A stretch of 64,000 nucleotides of DNA from Candidatus Thalassarchaeaceae archaeon (GCA_030748775.1 JASMLH010000001.1:1-64000), one strand, 5' to 3'; shown: positions 9,701-50,973, counted from the stretch's first letter. Numbers and translations are program-made. Notes: generated by a model from the letters alone, not told the origin.

Positions 9701-12700
9701 TTGCAGCCTTTGTTGGGTTGTTGGGAAAAGAGTCATCGATGGAGGGGAAACCGTCATGGTCGGCATCATCAGAGACGCCGACCTCGAAGATGTTGAGATT
9801 TGAGTCTCCGTCCAGGTCTCTTTCACCTGAAACGATGTAGGTCCATCTGGGGGTCTCAAACTCATCCGGTGAAGTTCCGATTGATAGTGGCCCGGAGCCA
9901 TGTCCTCCCCAGCACCTGAGTAGGTCATTGCTCGCTATCACGCACGAATGCGAGGCACCTATGGCTACAGATGTGGCTCCTAGGACATAGCCGAGGTCAA
10001 TTGCTGAGGGTGAGGTAACCGAGTCAGAGGTGCTGCCATCACCGACTTGCCCCTTCGCACTACCGCCCCAGCAATGTAGAACATTCGATGAGTCGATTGC
10101 ACAAGTGTGCTCATTCCCTAGGTCCACTGAGATTATTGAGGACAGAACAACCCCAACCGAACTTGCATCATGCAACTCGTTTGTATTGCCGTATCCTAGC
10201 TGGCCCTTTCCATTGGCCCCCCAGCACTTGAGGCTCGAATCTTCCAACAATGCGCAAGTGTGCGATCCACCGGCTGAAACAGCAACTGTATTCCCGCCTG
10301 TGGTCACCGAGTTTGGGGTGTTGCTAGTCGTCGGTGTGGAGCCAATTCCAAGTTGGCCATTGGAGTTGCTTCCCCAGCAACTCATCCCCCAGTCATCGAG
10401 AACTGCACACGTGTGTTGCCCACCAGCAGAAACTGCAAGTACCTTGCTTCCGCCGAAGGAAACGGACACCGGAGTGCTCTGATCGGTGTTCGTGCCATCT
10501 CCCAGTTGGCCGTCATTGTTCCGGCCCCAGCATTCCAGGCTCGCATCATCCAGTACTGCACAGCTATGCCATTTTCCAGAGGAAACTTGCACTGGAACAC
10601 CCGAGAGACTGACTGATACTGGCGAACTAGAATGGGTGCTTGTCCCATCTCCCAGTTGGCCGAAGTTGTTGTTGCCCCAGCACTTCAGGCTCGCATCATC
10701 CAGTATTGCGCAGGTGTGCTGCTGGCCTGTGCTCACAGAAACAGCAGTGCGGCCGGAGGCGAGCCCGACCTCCGTCAGTGTCAGCCTGTCAATTTCCGTC
10801 CCGTCGCCCAGTTGCCCAAACCCATTGTCGCCCCAGCAATTCAGTGACGAGTCATCGTATATCGCGCACAGGTGATTACCTCCCGATGCAAGGCTCGTCT
10901 CGGTAAATATCGAACCAGCCTGGAATCCTGCTACGTTCAGACCCAGAGCGTCTTGGACGGGTTTACTCATGTCCTGAAGTGAGCCATTACTAGAGGCAAC
11001 GTAGTAAGTCTGAGCTAGTGGGACGTTAACGCCATCGACTAGGATCTCCCAGTCCCCTCCGGATGGGTTCTCCAGCGTAATTCCGACAAGGTTGTTCAAG
11101 TCGTCGTTGCTGTAGGGTACTGTACTCCCGCTTGGGTCCTTCAGTGTGATGTCCAGGTCGTTGAACAGCTGCTTCGCCGCTAGGGGGGAGATGGGCGGAT
11201 CGTTCCAGGAGAGGACTACCCTGAGTTCGGGAACACCCACTGGAACTGTCAGTTTGATCGAGTGCCTCTCTCCGGTGGTGATTTCTGTCCCACCCAGGAA
11301 ATCGCTCTCGACCGCGCCTTGAAGATCGACCCTCCCCCATCCCTCATGTGGGTTGGGGGCGGCCTCTTGTGCCCCGTTCTTCCCATCTCCAGAACCGCAT
11401 GATGGGCAGAATGTCGTGTATTGCCCCTCCATGTCGTGGGCTCCCGCTACCAGGATCGCCTTAACCAACGCAGAGGACGGGTCGTTAGAATTCGTACTAT
11501 CGTCCGTGTAGCCTATGTTGCTGAGGTGCTCCAGAATTAGGGCCACCGAACCAGCTGTGATTGGAGTCGCCATGGAGGTCCCTGCATTGATGCAGTAATC
11601 GTTTCCCCCGGCCCAGTTGTTGCTTATGCAGGACATCGTCGCTTCACTATCCCCCGATAACGTGGATATGATGAACGTACCCGGCGCCACAATGTCGGGC
11701 TTGAGCCTCCCGTCGGCCGTCGGTCCCCTGTTGGAGAAGGCCGCCATCCCCTCTGGGTCGTTGTTCGTATTGTCGGTATTGAGTGGGGTCACTGGGAAGG
11801 ATACGGCTCCCGCAGAGGTCGATCCGTAAGTAGAGCCAAATCCGGGCCTGAAGTTTTCCGATGCCCCTACCGAGATGATGTTCTTGGCAGTGGCCTGATT
11901 GTTCATGTAGGCCAGATCTACCTCGCCATTCGAGTTCACATCCCGCCCGTCGTTCCCCATGGCGTACAGGATAACCATGTCATCCATGGAATAGGCTGAC
12001 TGATCTACCTTCAACGCCTGTGCGCTGTAGTAGGCGTCGCAGTTCTGACCGGCAGGGGCCGAGCACGGTTTATCCGGTCCCGTACCCCATGAGTTCGTGT
12101 GTACTCTTGCTCCGAAGTCGTACGCGGGCTGGAAAAGATCGTTCTCCAAGTCAGATGGGTTGTAAAGGCCTCCAGATCCACCACCACACTGAAGTGATTG
12201 CATGTACAATTGGGCTGCCGGTGCCATTCCAGCGTGGTTACTCCCCCCTTCCGACATTGCACCAGAGCCGAGGACAGAGCCCGCTACATGAGTGCCATGG
12301 CCATTGTAGTCGTTGGGCCCATCGTCACTACATGAACCATGGAAAGACTCCACATATGCGATTCTTCCATAGAAGTCAGGGTGAATCCCACTGGCCAGGC
12401 TGTTAACGGTGTTGCAATTCGAGATTCCGTTGCATTCCGATGACACGTCAAGTCCGGAGTCGGCAACACCTACGATGATTCCAGAACCCGTCAGAGCTCC
12501 TACCTCATCTAGCCACCCGACTTCTGACCCATCTGTGCGCCAGTTAGGCCTATGCTGGGCTGGGTCAGTGAACCAATCAACATTCACGACGTCGGATGCC
12601 GCCTCGTTGTCCAGGGATGTAGGATAGCTAGGCTCTAGCCACTCCACGAAGTCTTGGTTGGATAGCCACGATATTCCTTTCTCGTCAGTCACCAAGGTAG

Positions 12701-43587: not shown

Positions 43588-43983
43588 CTATTCAGACATT
43601 GCTGCAACCGCACCCACGGCGGCACGGGCATGAGGCTCAAGCCTTGGCCCTATGTGCTCGGGCTCCGCTCCCGGTCCGATAATTCCAAGCCCGATTGGCT
43701 TGTTATGCTTGATTTGCAGTTCGATAACTGCCCCAGTGACCGATTGTCCCATTACTAGGCCGTGATCGGTTTCTCCACGCTCGATTATTCCCAATACAAC
43801 AGCACCATGTATGGACTCTTGCTGAAGCATTCTATCAAGTGCGAGGGGGGCTTCCATAGAACCTGGAACCCAAGCCACATCAGCAACATTCCAGTTCTTT
43901 GAGGCGGCCTCTTCCTTAGCAAACTGAAGCATTGCCTCTACATCTTCACGGTGGAATGAACCACATACAATTCCTAGGTTCAA
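43588..43983 (-). CDS. ribH: 6,7-dimethyl-8-ribityllumazine synthase
   Basis: NVADVAWVPGSMEAPLALDRML, HGAVVLGIIERGETDHG; adjacent riboflavin genes. Confidence 0.88.
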   Translation of the reverse strand: MNLGIVCGSFHREDVEAMLQFAKEEAASKNWNVADVAWVPGSMEAPLALDRMLQQESIHGAVVLGIIERGETDHGLVMGQSVTGAVIELQIKHNKPIGLGIIGPGAEPEHIGPRLEPHARAAVGAVAAMSE

Positions 43984-44585
43984 GAATCTCCCTCCATTTT
44001 CCTCATCATCGTCTCCACAATAGCCTGAGTACGTGAATCAATCTCAATATTGACCATGCTACCTACTTCTTTTTGGCCTATTGTTGTGACTCTCAGTGTC
44101 TCTGGAATGATATGTAGTGCAAAGGACTCATCCGTTACTTCGCCGACCGTGAGGGACATACCATCGATGGCAATGAAACCCTTCTCCATCACGAATGGTC
44201 TGACACTCTCCGGATTCTCAACCAGGATGTACAAACCCTCTCCCCTAGCATGTCTATCTGTGATTTTTCCCATTGTCATCACATGACCGGATAGGATATG
44301 GCCACCTAGTTCGTCACCAACTTTCAGAGAGCGCTCAACATTTACAACTGCGCCTTCCTCTACTTGACCAAGCGTAGTCCTCTCTAGAGTCTCATCGATT
44401 GCATCAAAGACCACTTCCTTCCCATCTATTGAAACTACGGTCATGCAAACTCCGTCTATTGCCACGCTGGCACCTACCTCCAGATCTTCCAAGTATCTCC
44501 CTAGGTCAATCGTGAGTTTCCGAACTCCTTCATTCTCTTCTATTTCTACTACTGGTGCAATGCCGGCGACAATTCCCGTGTACAT
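43980..44585 (-). CDS. ribE: riboflavin synthase, bacterial-type (two lumazine-binding domains)
   Basis: MYTGIVAGIAPV, VAIDGVCMTVV, GGHILSGHVMTMGKI, KGFIAIDGMSLTV; overlaps ribH. Confidence 0.9.
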   Translation of the reverse strand: MYTGIVAGIAPVVEIEENEGVRKLTIDLGRYLEDLEVGASVAIDGVCMTVVSIDGKEVVFDAIDETLERTTLGQVEEGAVVNVERSLKVGDELGGHILSGHVMTMGKITDRHARGEGLYILVENPESVRPFVMEKGFIAIDGMSLTVGEVTDESFALHIIPETLRVTTIGQKEVGSMVNIEIDSRTQAIVETMMRKMEGDS

Positions 44586-44586
44586 G

Positions 44587-45045
44587 CTAGTCCTCCTCGT
44601 ACGGGCCGCCTTCCGAACCAGGCCATAGATCTAGGATTCTGGCAATAATCTTCCTGGTTCCGTCGAGATCGTCCGAAAGCCCCTCGACTCTTGTTACTTT
44701 TACATGCTCGAAACCATGACTCTCCAATCCATCTCTGATGGCGTCAATGGAGTGCTTCTGGTCGTATCCTAGTGCAATCAGATCAGGCTTTACGGCCTTC
44801 AAAATCTCAAAAATAGGAACTCCTGGGGGATTTCCCACAATTGCCCTGTCAACCGGTTTCAATCCTTCAACCATCCTTCTGCGGAGCTCTTGACCTGTAA
44901 CTGGCTCATGCTTTTGCCTTCTAACCGTCTCATCATGTGCTATGACTACAACAAGCTCGTCACCTAGGGATTTGGCTTGCTCCACGTAATGTAGATGCCC
45001 TGCATGCAGAAGGTCGAAGATTCCGACTGCCATCACCCGAACCAT
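44587..45045 (-). CDS. ribL: archaeal FAD synthetase-like cytidylyl/adenylyltransferase
   Basis: VMAVGIFDLLHAGHLHYVEQAKSLGDELVVVIAHD; riboflavin cluster. Confidence 0.85.
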   Translation of the reverse strand: MVRVMAVGIFDLLHAGHLHYVEQAKSLGDELVVVIAHDETVRRQKHEPVTGQELRRRMVEGLKPVDRAIVGNPPGVPIFEILKAVKPDLIALGYDQKHSIDAIRDGLESHGFEHVKVTRVEGLSDDLDGTRKIIARILDLWPGSEGGPYEED

Positions 45046-45072
45046 GTAATGAACTCCTAGGTTAAACCCCGC

Positions 45073-45804
45073 CTAATCTTTTTCATCCATCGCCGCAGTG
45101 ATTTCTTCTCCGGTAATCATCGGAACCCCATGTTCGAAAGCATACCTCATTGCATCATCAACTGAAAGAGCCCCATCGCCATCGGGCTCAAGCATCTCCG
45201 CTCCTATAGTGCATGGCACCAGTCCTGCCAACCTTGCAATCGCTACGGCTAGTTCGGTGTGACCTTGCCGGCCCGACAAACCACCGGGCGACTCCCTACA
45301 TACCGGAATATGGCCAGGTGTCCTAAACTCCGAACCGAGTGCGGAAATCGCCTCCTCGTGACTCATCTTTCTATCAAGTACCTCCATTGCCAGCTCCCCG
45401 AACCTCCTAGTGGTTAGGGACCTGTCCCTGTCGGTGATTCCAGTATAGGTATCCCTGTGATTCAATGAAAGTGTGAATGCGGACCTATTATCGTACTGAA
45501 GATCATTGGTGATCAGGTGGCCCAGTACGGGATTTTCATCCAACAGTGAGGGGTGCGTGTGGATGTCTTGTAGCCAAGGAAGCCCGAATGTCTCCCCTAT
45601 TTCGTTTCCAATAGCAAGAAAGAGAAGGCCACCACAGTCCTTTCTCAACCTCCTCATGACTTCTGGGGAGGCTGCTGTAGCAGGCCAGAGCAGGTCGGTT
45701 TCTCTCTCCCGATAGGCCGAGTCGAAAATCATCACGGGCTCACCTCGTGAGAAAGCGTCGACTGCGGCCTCCACGCTCGGGTCCATGATGCCCGGAGGGG
45801 TCAC
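45073..45804 (-). CDS. ribB: 3,4-dihydroxy-2-butanone 4-phosphate synthase
   Basis: SLNHRDTYTGITDRDRSLTTRRF, FRTPGHIPVCRESPGGLSGRQGHTELAVAIARLAGLVPCTIGAEML. Confidence 0.88.
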   Translation of the reverse strand: MTPPGIMDPSVEAAVDAFSRGEPVMIFDSAYRERETDLLWPATAASPEVMRRLRKDCGGLLFLAIGNEIGETFGLPWLQDIHTHPSLLDENPVLGHLITNDLQYDNRSAFTLSLNHRDTYTGITDRDRSLTTRRFGELAMEVLDRKMSHEEAISALGSEFRTPGHIPVCRESPGGLSGRQGHTELAVAIARLAGLVPCTIGAEMLEPDGDGALSVDDAMRYAFEHGVPMITGEEITAAMDEKD

Positions 45805-45863: not shown

Positions 45864-46742
45864 GTGGCAGAAAGGAGACAGGCCTCGTCCCCAGTTCGAG
45901 TTGATTTGGCAGGGGGCTGGACAGATGTGGGCCCATATCCAAGGGATTTTGGAGGCGAAGTGGTTAATTTCGCAATCAACAAGAGGGTTCGGGCAACAAT
46001 TGGCCAGGACTCGAAGCCGGACGATTTCGAATTGTCATTTGATACTCCCAGGGGATCCGGTTTGGGGACTAGCAGTGCGATGAATGTAGCTATCTCCGGC
46101 CTCCTTTCAGATCCCAATGACACTGTGAACCGCGAAGAAATCGCCGAGATGGCCTTCGATTTGGAATCAAGAGGGGGCATGATTTGTGGACGGCAAGACC
46201 ATTGGGCCTCCGCTAGGGGGGGCTTCAACCACCTCCTATTCATTGGTGAATCTGTGGAAATAATGCCCTTCGAGCCGATTAGGTCGGCAAAGATGTGGTT
46301 ACACAAGCACCTTCTGTTGGTGTATTCCGGCGAAAGTAGGAACTCCGGAGAAATGCAGGAAAGGGTCTGGAAGAGGTACTCCGAAGGTGCCCAATCCGTA
46401 ATCGATGGACTTCACAGGATTAGAGCTGCAGCAAGGCCAATGGCAAATGGCCTCCAACTAGATAGAAGGGACATGGTAGTGGGCTCCTTGAGGGAAGTTT
46501 GCAAGGGGGTGGACTTGATCGATAGATCAATTCACGACCCTTTCCGGGGTGTTGTGGACCCACTAATTGCAAACGGCTCATTGGCTGCATGGAAGGCCCT
46601 AGGTGCTGGTGGGGGGGGCTGCGCAGGCCTCTTATGCAATCCAAATTCCATGGAGGCAGTGAAATCTTCTGTTGAGTTAGCAGGTTGGCAGGTAATCGAG
46701 TGGGACTACGACGAGCAGGGATTGGAGATTACTGGTGAATAG
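45864..46742 (+). CDS. GHMP-family sugar kinase (fucose/heptose-kinase-like)
   Basis: PVRVDLAGGWTDVGPYPRDFGGEVVNFAI; GSGLGTSSAMNVAI; LGAGGGGCAGLL. Confidence 0.78.
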   Translation: MAERRQASSPVRVDLAGGWTDVGPYPRDFGGEVVNFAINKRVRATIGQDSKPDDFELSFDTPRGSGLGTSSAMNVAISGLLSDPNDTVNREEIAEMAFDLESRGGMICGRQDHWASARGGFNHLLFIGESVEIMPFEPIRSAKMWLHKHLLLVYSGESRNSGEMQERVWKRYSEGAQSVIDGLHRIRAAARPMANGLQLDRRDMVVGSLREVCKGVDLIDRSIHDPFRGVVDPLIANGSLAAWKALGAGGGGCAGLLCNPNSMEAVKSSVELAGWQVIEWDYDEQGLEITGE

Positions 46743-46769: not shown

Positions 46770-49700
46770 ATGGCCCGTAGGGCCATGAGCGCACGCAGGG
46801 GCAGCTTGTCACTCCTCATGGTCCTGGTCTTATTTGCCCCCATTGCAGCATCCTCAATTGCCCCAGAAAATAATCCTCGGGGGGGATTCGATGCAGAGGG
46901 CAATTGGCAGCCGAGCGTGGAGCTAGAAATCCACTCTAAATGGTGGGAACACTGGAGCCGGGACAAGGACGCAAACTCTCTCGATGACAGGCTCGAGTGG
47001 CTAATCGAACAACCAGAGGAGACCCAGCGAGATTGGTGGAGGAGGGCATCAGAGGACCATGCAAGGATTTTCGTTGACTACGACCACCATCCATCCGATG
47101 CTGATATTGAAGCCCTTGAATCCGTAGGAGTCGAAGTAACATTTCGCTTCAGTTATCTGGATACCCTGTCTGCTACAGCACCAATTGAATCAATATTGGA
47201 TCCAGAGGGAATAAGGGCACTCCCCGGAGTTGTCATGATCGAGGATCTTGGACTTGCCGAGACAAATATGCACCAAGCCGTTCCCAACATGGGAGTCGAT
47301 TTGGTCTGGCAGGACTTCGGGTTCGATGGAACCGGCTCAGTTATCGCAGTGCTCGACACGGGCGTCAGAGGAGATCATGAGGGACTCAATGATATGGATG
47401 ATGACCCATTCACGTGCCTCGATGATCCACCAGAACCCGATCCCCTCGATCCCGACCCAGAACCCATCCCATCCGACTGCGACCCCAAGATTATCGCCTT
47501 CTACGATGCGGTATTCACAGATGAGGAACAGGATCCCTCGACCTCCTACGACTCGGGAACGCACGGGACTCACGTAGCCGGAATCGCCGCAGGAACAGGA
47601 GGGGGCCAGACAGATCCAGAAACCGGACTCAGATATGTCGGTGCAGCACCTGGGGCCTACCTGATCAACATCCTGGGCTGCTGTGACGGCGATATCGAGG
47701 ACGTTATGCAAGGTGCCCAGTGGGCCATCGATAACAAGGAAAAGTACGGAATCGACGTAGTAACCTCCTCCCTGGGCGAACAGCAGTTCGAAATTCACGT
47801 CGACAACGACGGAAACTCGGCATGGAGCCGCCAGATGGACATGGTCGTGGAAGCGGGAATCATCACCACCCTATCAGCTGGAAACGAATTGGGTGGGATA
47901 ACCCTAGCCGGTTGCAATACCATCGACAGCCCAGGCGATGCCAGATTGCCAGTGACTGTGGCTAGTCTGGACAAGGATCTCGGACTGGCCATCTACAGTA
48001 GTAGGGGATACACATCTGACCTCCGTGTAAAGCCGGATGTCGCAACAATCGGGTCCAGCATCATGGCACCGGATGCTGCAACTCAAGACGGCTATACCAG
48101 CAAGTCCGGCACCAGTATGGCCACTCCCCTGATGGCTGGAATAGCAGCCCTCATGGTTCAGGCCAACCCGGATATCACCCCAACCGAGTTCAAGGACATC
48201 ATTGGTGCCCACTCAATCGAACGTGAAATCCAGCTTCTGGATGATCCCGGCTTCAATGACTGCAGTCTGCTAGAAACGCGTCCCGACAACGAGTTCGGAT
48301 ACGGCCAAGCCGACCCGGTGGCATTCGTAGAGGCTGCAGGAAGCATAGACCGTTCACTCAATGTCTCGATGGACCTGGAGACGCTACAAGAAGTCGGCAA
48401 TGAGAGCTACATCTCCGGAACCTCATCAGGCGGTGCACCCGGGTTGGGTGTAGTAGAGGTCAAGGTTGGTGGTGGTGAATGGAAGGGTGCCGCAGACCTG
48501 TCGAAGAATGGTGACTGGGCGACCTGGAGAGTCAAACTAGATCCTCACACTGAATCTGGAAATTCAACGATCTATGCCAGGCTGGCCATCTCAGAGGACA
48601 GCATCTCTCCGATTGATGCCCGAAGAGTTGTACTGATCGACGGTCAGTCTGCATCAGGAGCGTTAGGGGACCTGACTTCCATGGGCTCATGGGTGTTCTT
48701 TGTGCCCTTTGCATTCGCTTTGGCTCTGCTTGGCTTCATCATGATCACTGAGAGGTGGGACAGGAAGTTCTTGACCGCCATGCGAAAACCAAAACCAGAT
48801 TTGAGCTCCATACCTGTTGGTGAAGCACTACAAGATGGTGTCAGAACTAGTAGCAGTGGAAATCCCATCATGTCCTTCTTCGTAGGGTTCATCATTGGTG
48901 GAATAATGGCATTCATCCAAACACTTGGAGCATTCGTCAGAGGTCTTCGTAATGGCGAGGCACTGACTGAGAACAAGGCATCGAGAACCATCGCTCTGTG
49001 TATCCTCTATGTCGCACAAGGTCTCCCTTCCGGCTTCGCTAACGTGGCCTTCGTCGCCTTCCTCGTGACCAATGGAATAGCGGTTGAGCAGATTGCCTTG
49101 CTGTTCGCTACCGTCTACCTTCCCTGGACATTCAAGTTCATCTGGGGCCCGGTCATCGACATGGTAACTTTCCCACGATACGGAGTTAGACGGCCTTGGG
49201 TTCTGTTTGCCGAGACTGGGATGATCCTCTCCCTCGCTACCTTGCTGTTGGTACCAGATCTAGTCGCTTCAATTCAACTGGCCACCATACTGCTGTTCAT
49301 CCATAATCTGTTCTCATCTTTACAGGATGTCAGCGTAGATGCACTGGCTGTGGATATCCTCGAGCCGGATGAAGTAGCCACTGTGAATGGGCTAATGTTC
49401 GCCTCCAAGAGAGGTGGAATCATCTTTGGAGGGGCCGTCCTTGGAATGCTAGTAGTCCCGTATGGAATCAAGTCAGCGATCATGGTTCAACTGCCACTAT
49501 TGGCGCTGATTATGATGGTACCACTCTTCCTACGTGAGAGGCCAAGTAACAGCCTGTTCCCTTGGAGCAGAAAGAGAGAGAAGGAAGAGGAGGCTAGAAT
49601 GAGCAGGGACGATGTCACGGGCGAGAGGATCGACCCCATAACCGGCGTGAAGATTAGTGAGTACGAGGATCCGATTGAGGCAGAAGCGGTTCTACCTTGG

Positions 49701-50723
49701 GAAGCAGATCATCCAGAGGAGTTCACACAAGCACGATGGGTCGCTACCAACCTGCACGAGAACAGAATCTCCCCCGCAGCTCTAGTCCTATGGCTCAGTA
49801 TCGGATTCTTTCTGCTTTGGGGGCTATTCGCCATCATTCACCAACTGACGAGCACGTATACAGGAGACTGGGCCCTGACGTTTGGAGACATCGCAGCTCC
49901 TATGAAGTCAATCGGGAAGTGGGGACTTCTAGTCTCAGCCTTGATAATTCTGGCTGAAAGACTTGGAGCATCAATCCCTGAGATTAGAAATCCTGTTCCT
50001 GCTTCCACTCTCGCATCTACAACTGCTTACAACATTGTCAAGGGATTCTCCACTCGCTCTTCGTTCATCCTGATATTCCTCTGCCTGCTCTCGGAGTTGT
50101 ACTTGTTCACCGACCCGATTGTGGTTGACATATTCATCAACGAGGCAGGGTGGTCGCAGACCAAGTATAATGCAATCATGGGAGGCGTAGTAATCGCCTT
50201 CATGATGTTCGGACAGATCGTCGGAGGGATGCTCGGGGATAGGTTCGGAGTCAGAGAAATCTCGATGATCGGCTTCACCCTGCTCGCCCTGTCAAATGCT
50301 ACTCTTGCCCTGATTAGCGATCACTGGACTAACACCAATCTCATGGTCACATACCTATGCGTTCGAGCCATCATCAACGGAGTAGCTTGGATATGCGTCA
50401 TCGCAGTAGCGATGAGGCTAACATTCTCCAAGGCCGGTGGCTCTCAGTTCACAGCCTACATGTCGATGTTCAATCTCTCAGCGGTTATGGCCTATCTGTT
50501 CACAGGAACAATGACCCAGAGATTCGATTACATCACGTGCCTGTACATCGGTGCTGCTCTGACCCTATTCACCGTGATTCTCCTCTGGTTCATCGACCCA
50601 GACGAGGTCGACAGAGTCCTTGAGGGTCGCTTTGGAGATGACGAGGAAGAGTTCGATGGCGATCTCGGTGAGAGGCCCGAGGCGTGGTATGAGGGAGGGG
50701 AGCCAGCTGTCTCAGGTGCGTGA
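46770..50723 (+). CDS. fusion of secreted subtilisin-like (S8) protease with C-terminal AmpG-like MFS permease
   Basis: Single 1,317-aa ORF. Signal peptide; VIAVLDTGVRGDHEG, GTHGTHVAGIAAG, TTLSAGNELG, SGTSMATPLMAGIAALM; then TM segments and ASRTIALCILYVAQGLPSGFANVAFVAFLVTNGIAVEQIALLFATVYLPWTFKFIWGPVIDMVTFPRYGVRRPWVLFAE. Confidence 0.87.
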   Translation: MARRAMSARRGSLSLLMVLVLFAPIAASSIAPENNPRGGFDAEGNWQPSVELEIHSKWWEHWSRDKDANSLDDRLEWLIEQPEETQRDWWRRASEDHARIFVDYDHHPSDADIEALESVGVEVTFRFSYLDTLSATAPIESILDPEGIRALPGVVMIEDLGLAETNMHQAVPNMGVDLVWQDFGFDGTGSVIAVLDTGVRGDHEGLNDMDDDPFTCLDDPPEPDPLDPDPEPIPSDCDPKIIAFYDAVFTDEEQDPSTSYDSGTHGTHVAGIAAGTGGGQTDPETGLRYVGAAPGAYLINILGCCDGDIEDVMQGAQWAIDNKEKYGIDVVTSSLGEQQFEIHVDNDGNSAWSRQMDMVVEAGIITTLSAGNELGGITLAGCNTIDSPGDARLPVTVASLDKDLGLAIYSSRGYTSDLRVKPDVATIGSSIMAPDAATQDGYTSKSGTSMATPLMAGIAALMVQANPDITPTEFKDIIGAHSIEREIQLLDDPGFNDCSLLETRPDNEFGYGQADPVAFVEAAGSIDRSLNVSMDLETLQEVGNESYISGTSSGGAPGLGVVEVKVGGGEWKGAADLSKNGDWATWRVKLDPHTESGNSTIYARLAISEDSISPIDARRVVLIDGQSASGALGDLTSMGSWVFFVPFAFALALLGFIMITERWDRKFLTAMRKPKPDLSSIPVGEALQDGVRTSSSGNPIMSFFVGFIIGGIMAFIQTLGAFVRGLRNGEALTENKASRTIALCILYVAQGLPSGFANVAFVAFLVTNGIAVEQIALLFATVYLPWTFKFIWGPVIDMVTFPRYGVRRPWVLFAETGMILSLATLLLVPDLVASIQLATILLFIHNLFSSLQDVSVDALAVDILEPDEVATVNGLMFASKRGGIIFGGAVLGMLVVPYGIKSAIMVQLPLLALIMMVPLFLRERPSNSLFPWSRKREKEEEARMSRDDVTGERIDPITGVKISEYEDPIEAEAVLPWEADHPEEFTQARWVATNLHENRISPAALVLWLSIGFFLLWGLFAIIHQLTSTYTGDWALTFGDIAAPMKSIGKWGLLVSALIILAERLGASIPEIRNPVPASTLASTTAYNIVKGFSTRSSFILIFLCLLSELYLFTDPIVVDIFINEAGWSQTKYNAIMGGVVIAFMMFGQIVGGMLGDRFGVREISMIGFTLLALSNATLALISDHWTNTNLMVTYLCVRAIINGVAWICVIAVAMRLTFSKAGGSQFTAYMSMFNLSAVMAYLFTGTMTQRFDYITCLYIGAALTLFTVILLWFIDPDEVDRVLEGRFGDDEEEFDGDLGERPEAWYEGGEPAVSGA

Positions 50724-50973
50724 GCATCTCGAGTCCGCAAATACGGACTTTCTGTTCTTCTCCCAGACAATCTGCCCATACTGCACTAGGGCAGAGAGGA
50801 CGTTAGATGCACACGGCCTCACATATACAGAAGTTAATCTCGACCACCATGATGGGCTGAGAGAACAGGTAGTTGCCGAGACTAGGCACCGAACTGTCCC
50901 AGTTGTCTTTGATTTGAGAGGAGATGAGCCAGTTTTCGTTGGCGGCTCTGACCACCTGCTGGAGTATCTCTAG
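50689..50973 (+). CDS. glutaredoxin-like protein
   Basis: FLFFSQTICPYCTRAERTLDAHGLTYTEVNLD, RTVPVVFD; overlaps the end of the fusion gene. Confidence 0.85.
   Translation: MREGSQLSQVREHLESANTDFLFFSQTICPYCTRAERTLDAHGLTYTEVNLDHHDGLREQVVAETRHRTVPVVFDLRGDEPVFVGGSDHLLEYL

Follow-up and report, generated by a model that had tools for sequence, protein, structure and literature searches.

A 64,000-nucleotide stretch of DNA from a Candidatus Thalassarchaeaceae archaeon (the window) carries one open frame of 1317 codons, with an ATG start, in which a predicted secreted subtilisin-like protease of family S8 is joined to an AmpG/SLC33-like transporter of the Major facilitator superfamily (MFS). The reading favoured here, with a probability of about 0.52, is that the product would be a single-chain device that captures or cuts and then imports. 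The predicted architecture, consisting of a signal peptide, the S8 domain, a beta-sandwich, one transmembrane (TM) helix, a linker and the MFS transporter (Table 1), is well supported. A broader proposal, held tentatively and at slightly less than even odds, is that this protein may represent a class-wide family of secondary importers in archaea, with a constant MFS core and a plug-in catalytic or metal-binding ectodomain, swapped at one slot and partly recombined between genera, with each lineage coupling its own outer reaction or capture to uptake.

Table 1. Predicted features of the fusion gene and its surroundings, in positions of the window.
Feature	Position	Strand	Basis or remark
S8-MFS fusion ORF	46770..50723	+	1317 aa; end includes stop
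Signal peptide region (aa 1-31)	46770..46862	+	hydrophobic stretch aa 13-31 behind 4 basic residues
Inhibitor-type propeptide (aa ~97-165), probable	47058..47264	+	inferred from weak alignment with N-terminal part of Tk-SP (3afg), 9.5 bits
Peptidase S8 catalytic domain (aa 187-512)	47328..48305	+	PF00082 E 5e-43; motifs VIAVLDTG, GTHGTHVAG, SAGN, SGTSMATP
Beta-sandwich domain, protease-membrane spacer (aa 531-623)	48360..48638	+	strands mostly pLDDT 81-90 in AlphaFold2 model
TM helix (aa 641-660), out to in	48690..48749	+	Kyte-Doolittle 2.49, strong TM call at aa 642-660; helix with pLDDT ~95 in model; also in ectodomain-MFS relatives
Cytoplasmic linker (aa 661-728), variable	48750..48953	+	includes lineage-specific hydrophobic stretch aa 705-723; unconserved in relatives
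AmpG/SLC33-like MFS transporter (aa 729-1317)	48954..50720	+	PF07690, PF13000, TIGR00901; predicted 6+2+6 TM helices
Recombined tract, ~2.7 kb, about aa 490 through glutaredoxin	48237..50973	+	identity profiles, AU tests; edges approximate; g9-like donor
Riboflavin biosynthesis cluster beside slot	43588-45804	-	DHBP synthase by profile; rest read by eye
GHMP-type kinase, upstream slot border	45864..46742	+	PF00288; synteny
Glutaredoxin (CPYC), overlaps fusion 3' end	50689..50973	+	PF00462 E 5e-14; ATG 50689 or GTG 50716; conserved by slot
Predicted lipoprotein, 325 aa	50970-51947	-	conserved in synteny; no Pfam/NCBIfam match

The N-terminal signal peptide noted in a preliminary description of this DNA corresponds to the hydrophobic segment at aa ~13-31, and the complete S8 catalytic set claimed there was recovered as well. 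The S8 domain scores 147.8 bits with PF00082 against a gathering score of 21.8 and covers positions 1-288 of the 288 in the profile (Pfam), and the Asp, His, Asn and Ser active-site motifs of the family are all present. With its catalytic set complete, the domain is predicted to be an active peptidase of family S8, for which the nearest solved structure is the subtilisin Tk-SP (3afg, E 8e-37). An AlphaFold2 model of aa 150-1317 was built from 70 sequences and has a mean pLDDT of 71; its S8 part is poor, probably owing to the shallow alignment.

The AmpG-type identity earlier assigned to the C-terminal half holds by Pfam, NCBIfam, PDB and Foldseek comparisons, though at scores below the NCBIfam AmpG cut-offs. 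MFS_1 (PF07690) matches aa 743-1071 (E 2e-31; 109.7 bits against a gathering score of 33.4), while Acatn (PF13000) matches the N-terminal part only (E 8e-7; 28.4 bits, cut-off 23.7). The AmpG family model TIGR00901 aligns over aa 738-1274 with an E of 6e-36, but at 124 bits against a curated cut-off of 350, and NF008238 reaches 48 of the required 756 bits. AmpG is also the best PDB match by sequence (E 1e-10; profile E 1e-17), followed by SLC33A1. A Foldseek search again ranked AmpG first, and its best matches were MFS structures, with efflux pumps such as EfpA also among those matched. The modelled helices, counted by eye, would be consistent with a 6+2+6 arrangement of 14 TM helices. From sequence and predicted fold, this half is classed as an AmpG/SLC33-like member of the MFS. 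A second TM helix proposed between the halves (aa 705-723) did not survive comparison. The stretch is lineage-specific, the linkers of other fusions being hydrophilic, amphipathic or nearly absent, and since it is unconserved in relatives and a real helix at this point would invert the transporter, it is read as not genuine.

The uninterrupted S8-MFS frame was found again, in the same frame, in more than 60 independently assembled MAGs (a count of the open frames listed for relatives), which rules out an assembly error or frameshift at the junction. Some match was given by 60/60 of the nearest genomes. Joined frames of 1238-1350 aa occur in seven genera of Thalassarchaeaceae (MGIIb), and five genomes of f3, another family of the same class that is probably Marine Group III judging from its kinship, carry S8-MFS frames, 1168-1206 aa long, at another locus; the single frame is thus conserved across seven genera and f3. 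The four S8 motifs are fully preserved in 38/38 full-length fusions of Thalassarchaeaceae, showing none of the loss of catalytic residues that had been raised as a possible objection. An internal start giving a separate MFS protein was rejected, there being no conserved in-frame start and 15 of 40 fusions lacking any in-frame ATG near the junction. A viral origin was likewise discarded, as no relative was found among viral contigs. Relative to the window, the f3 fusions are 49-51% identical in S8 and 43-46% in the N-terminal half of the MFS. Grouping of f3 with S8 paralogues was not rejected by the S8 data (p-AU 0.21), nor was grouping of f3 with f1, the window's family, by the MFS data (p-AU 0.24), and these sequences leave undecided whether the fusions of the two families go back to one ancient fusion or two.

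The suggestion that homologues might be split into separate frames proved correct for some relatives with a stand-alone S8 gene, but not for the more than 60 genomes in which the frame is joined. In G030 and in L196-L201, an S8 paralogue has beside it a stand-alone S8 bearing a TM at its C-terminal end, and in some species a membrane-anchored solo S8 lies elsewhere and the transporter bears another ectodomain. The S8 genes of L196-L201 are in tandem, the second being a free-standing orthologue of the fused S8 with the C-terminal TM. In the window, a further S8-like stretch lies at 11514-11816 on the minus strand, within an open frame of 2226 codons.

Used as a query, the MFS half found matches in 191 of the 293 genomes of the order, and about 90 MFS frames were taken from relatives for comparison of ectodomains. 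Complete frames run from a signal peptide through an ectodomain, one TM and a linker to the MFS, the exception being an ectodomain-less paralogue of ~440-455 aa in family f2 (L153-L156). The TM-to-MFS linker is almost absent from type II fusions and is elsewhere variable and sometimes long, while the conserved transporter keeps invariant charged residues. The ectodomains form five clusters without detectable mutual similarity, namely S8 (39), B (20), A (17), Peptidase_M28 (8) and plastocyanin (3). The M28 domains (E 1e-17 to 8e-19) have complete ligand motifs in 8/8 cases, and the plastocyanin domains (L065, L068, L150; E about 1e-13) have the type-1 copper ligands in 3/3. Domain A has a MYFWGD-like motif, and domain B starts with a lipobox-like LxGC motif (L067, L127-L133, L140-L149), suggesting that it may be doubly anchored, by lipid as well as TM. 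Neither A nor B had a significant match to Pfam or PDB sequences. A beta-sandwich fold is predicted for A, whose Foldseek matches, CBM4/CBM27-type jelly rolls included, have TM-scores of 0.11-0.36, too weak to name the domain from them. At least 11 changes of ectodomain label are needed on the MFS trees against a minimum of 5, implying that exchange happened repeatedly; most branches of the second tree are starred. Ectodomain exchange on a constant MFS family is thus a well-supported interpretation of the trees.

In the window, the slot occupied by the fusion is bordered by the riboflavin cluster and the GHMP kinase upstream and by glutaredoxin, the lipoprotein-like gene and a pyrophosphatase downstream. 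The same genes flank the slot whether the ectodomain is S8, A or M28, and the version can differ between species, including species of a single genus. Most species of genus g1 have S8 at the slot, with A in G015 and G024; in g4, A is found in G030, G127 and G273 and S8 in G060, G092 and G068; and g18 has both versions. M28 occupies the slot in g3, where glutaredoxin lies on the other strand and the neighbours seen were just the downstream ones, and in g16, a genus of f2. Among the genes examined, those with plastocyanin or B and those of f2 with A sit at other loci.

The two halves of the window's gene differ in their kinship. In the S8 tree the window groups with G011 and G021 of its own genus, and in the MFS tree with genus g9. 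A constraint joining the window to g9 and G068 cost the S8 data 152 log-likelihood units, one joining it to G011/G021 cost the MFS data 604, and both were rejected by AU tests, as was a single MFS clade for g1 or for g4; the groups tested were picked after the trees were seen. Over aa 1-480 the window has 91% identity with G011 and 83% with g9 (G225). From aa 481 it is 88-94% identical to G225 through the S8 end, beta-sandwich, transporter and glutaredoxin, with 52% and 72% identity to G011 in the transporter and glutaredoxin, and at the downstream pyrophosphatase it returns to 97% for G011 and 84% for g9. The transporter half and glutaredoxin are therefore attributed, from these profiles, to another genus, by recombination of ~2.7 kb. 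Domain shuffling at the linker was rejected as the source of the differing MFS halves within the genus; since the breakpoint falls within the S8 domain, at about aa 490-540, and the tract extends through glutaredoxin, the pattern is better matched by homologous recombination between alleles of the fusion.

In the proposed mechanism, the signal peptide would export the N-terminal half and the subtilisin would stay outside, its propeptide probably self-removed. The beta-sandwich and single TM helix would tether it to an MFS importer with a cytoplasmic N terminus. The protease would then cut extracellular protein at the membrane surface, and the AmpG/SLC33-type transporter, probably ion-driven by analogy with its family, would import the small products, short peptides or amino acids being the likeliest, before these are lost by diffusion. 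With an MFS that stays constant throughout a class-wide family, the exchangeable outer module would presumably fit uptake to differing sources. We infer the direction of transport, the peptide substrate and the local hand-off from protease to transporter from several lines of evidence. The strongest clue for peptide or amino-acid uptake is the presence of two unrelated peptidase folds, S8 and M28, on one importer family. Import is favoured by the kinship with AmpG and SLC33A1 and by the genome context of the closest free-standing relatives, in Verrucomicrobiales (41-46% identity), which are divergently paired with a 4-hydroxyproline epimerase in 6 of 7 contigs, four of which also have a D-amino-acid dehydrogenase. 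The fused M28 and these hydroxyproline and D-amino-acid neighbours thus lend indirect support to cutting followed by import. The plastocyanin, A and B ectodomains on the same MFS fit poorly with a purely proteolytic role.

Such diversity of ectodomains would suit an arrangement in which the MFS imports something that the ectodomain does not make and the fusion mainly anchors and co-expresses the two. The transporter half has moreover been exchanged beneath a conserved protease half, indicating that the halves need not be mutually tuned, and S8 is anchored in some species by its own TM without a transporter. This arrangement is nevertheless considered unlikely: two unrelated peptidases on one transporter family are hard to account for without a functional link, and a single TM would be enough for anchoring, which does not call for a conserved transporter whose charged residues are invariant. 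A distinctly unlikely alternative is that cystine peptides, or peptides resembling oxidised glutathione, are trimmed by the peptidase, imported by the MFS and reduced inside by glutaredoxin. Glutaredoxin adjoins the slot in f1 and in g16 of f2, overlaps the fusion end in the window and was moved together with the transporter in one recombination tract; the family relative SLC33A1 carries oxidised glutathione (PMC12889552), and a passage of one survey reports sulfate uptake genes missing in some MGII (PMC6864105). However, glutaredoxin is absent at f3 loci and most f2 loci and is reversed in g3, and its adjacency may be incidental.

It is also conceivable, if quite improbable, that the fusion is a precursor yielding two ordinary proteins, the subtilisin freeing itself or another protease cutting the linker. 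Subtilisins process themselves, and autoproteolysis could release the S8 half; the variable, at times long, linker and the solo S8 forms are in keeping with this, yet type II fusions have nearly no TM-MFS linker and the fusion has been retained across two families of the class. Very improbable, finally, is a role for the MFS in exporting a peptide or precursor for trimming by the outer peptidase. The closest relatives by sequence and fold are AmpG, an importer, and SLC33A1, the free-standing relatives sit with amino-acid catabolism, and no precursor gene was seen at the slot, although the direction of an MFS transporter is unreadable from its sequence and the fold search also matched efflux pumps (EfpA).

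If capture or cutting followed by import is correct, a protease joined to its importer would directly answer how digestion products are kept. Marine Group II count among the most numerous archaea of the plankton and are believed to feed on protein, and the retention of digestion products is a gap in this picture. Passages of published surveys describe MGII as having extracellular S8/M28 peptidases and highly transcribed subtilases and as lacking amino-acid biosynthesis (PMC6336850, PMC6461757, PMC6864105, PMC9723583); in one of them the MGII genomes lack the genes for making amino acids and look proteolytic (PMC6461757). A word search of the main texts of PMC6336850, PMC6461757, PMC6864105 and PMC9723583 found no mention of fusions, and no protease-transporter fusion was found in the open-access literature, on which the S8-MFS and exchangeable-ectodomain architecture is provisionally judged to be undescribed. 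For annotators, the 'extracellular S8 and M28 peptidases' of such surveys may include transporter halves. 'Selfish' protein uptake in MGII would, if the proposal is true, become testable with one expressed gene, and swapping of outer domains would be a possible route for transporters to change function.

Among known systems, AmpG of the PAT family of MFS (9j9z, 8zbb, 8zgz, 9c3f) resembles the transporter half in sequence and fold, and perhaps in its 14 TM helices, if the count predicted for that half is right; unlike the fusion it has no ectodomain, and the NCBIfam AmpG models score the archaeal half far below cut-off. AmpG imports muropeptides, and since archaea lack murein, the substrate here must differ and muropeptide transport by the archaeal protein is unlikely. 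SLC33A1 (acetyl-CoA transporter 1, or ER oxidised-glutathione exporter) shares Acatn and N-terminal motifs with the MFS half, but has no ectodomain and matches in sequence over the first TM helices only; it moves oxidised glutathione toward the cytosol (PMC12889552). Tk-SP and other archaeal S8 subtilisins (3afg) have the same catalytic domain and four motifs, but enzymes of this type are secreted or singly anchored and unjoined to a transporter, while the Verrucomicrobiales AmpG-like transporters, at 41-46% identity, are about 440-460 aa long and without an ectodomain. An enzyme or capture domain does share one chain with a transporter in LplT-Aas fusions and in ABC importers with fused binding domains; the LplT-Aas enzyme, however, is cytoplasmic, and the ABC fusions carry binding domains, not proteases, on transporters outside the MFS.
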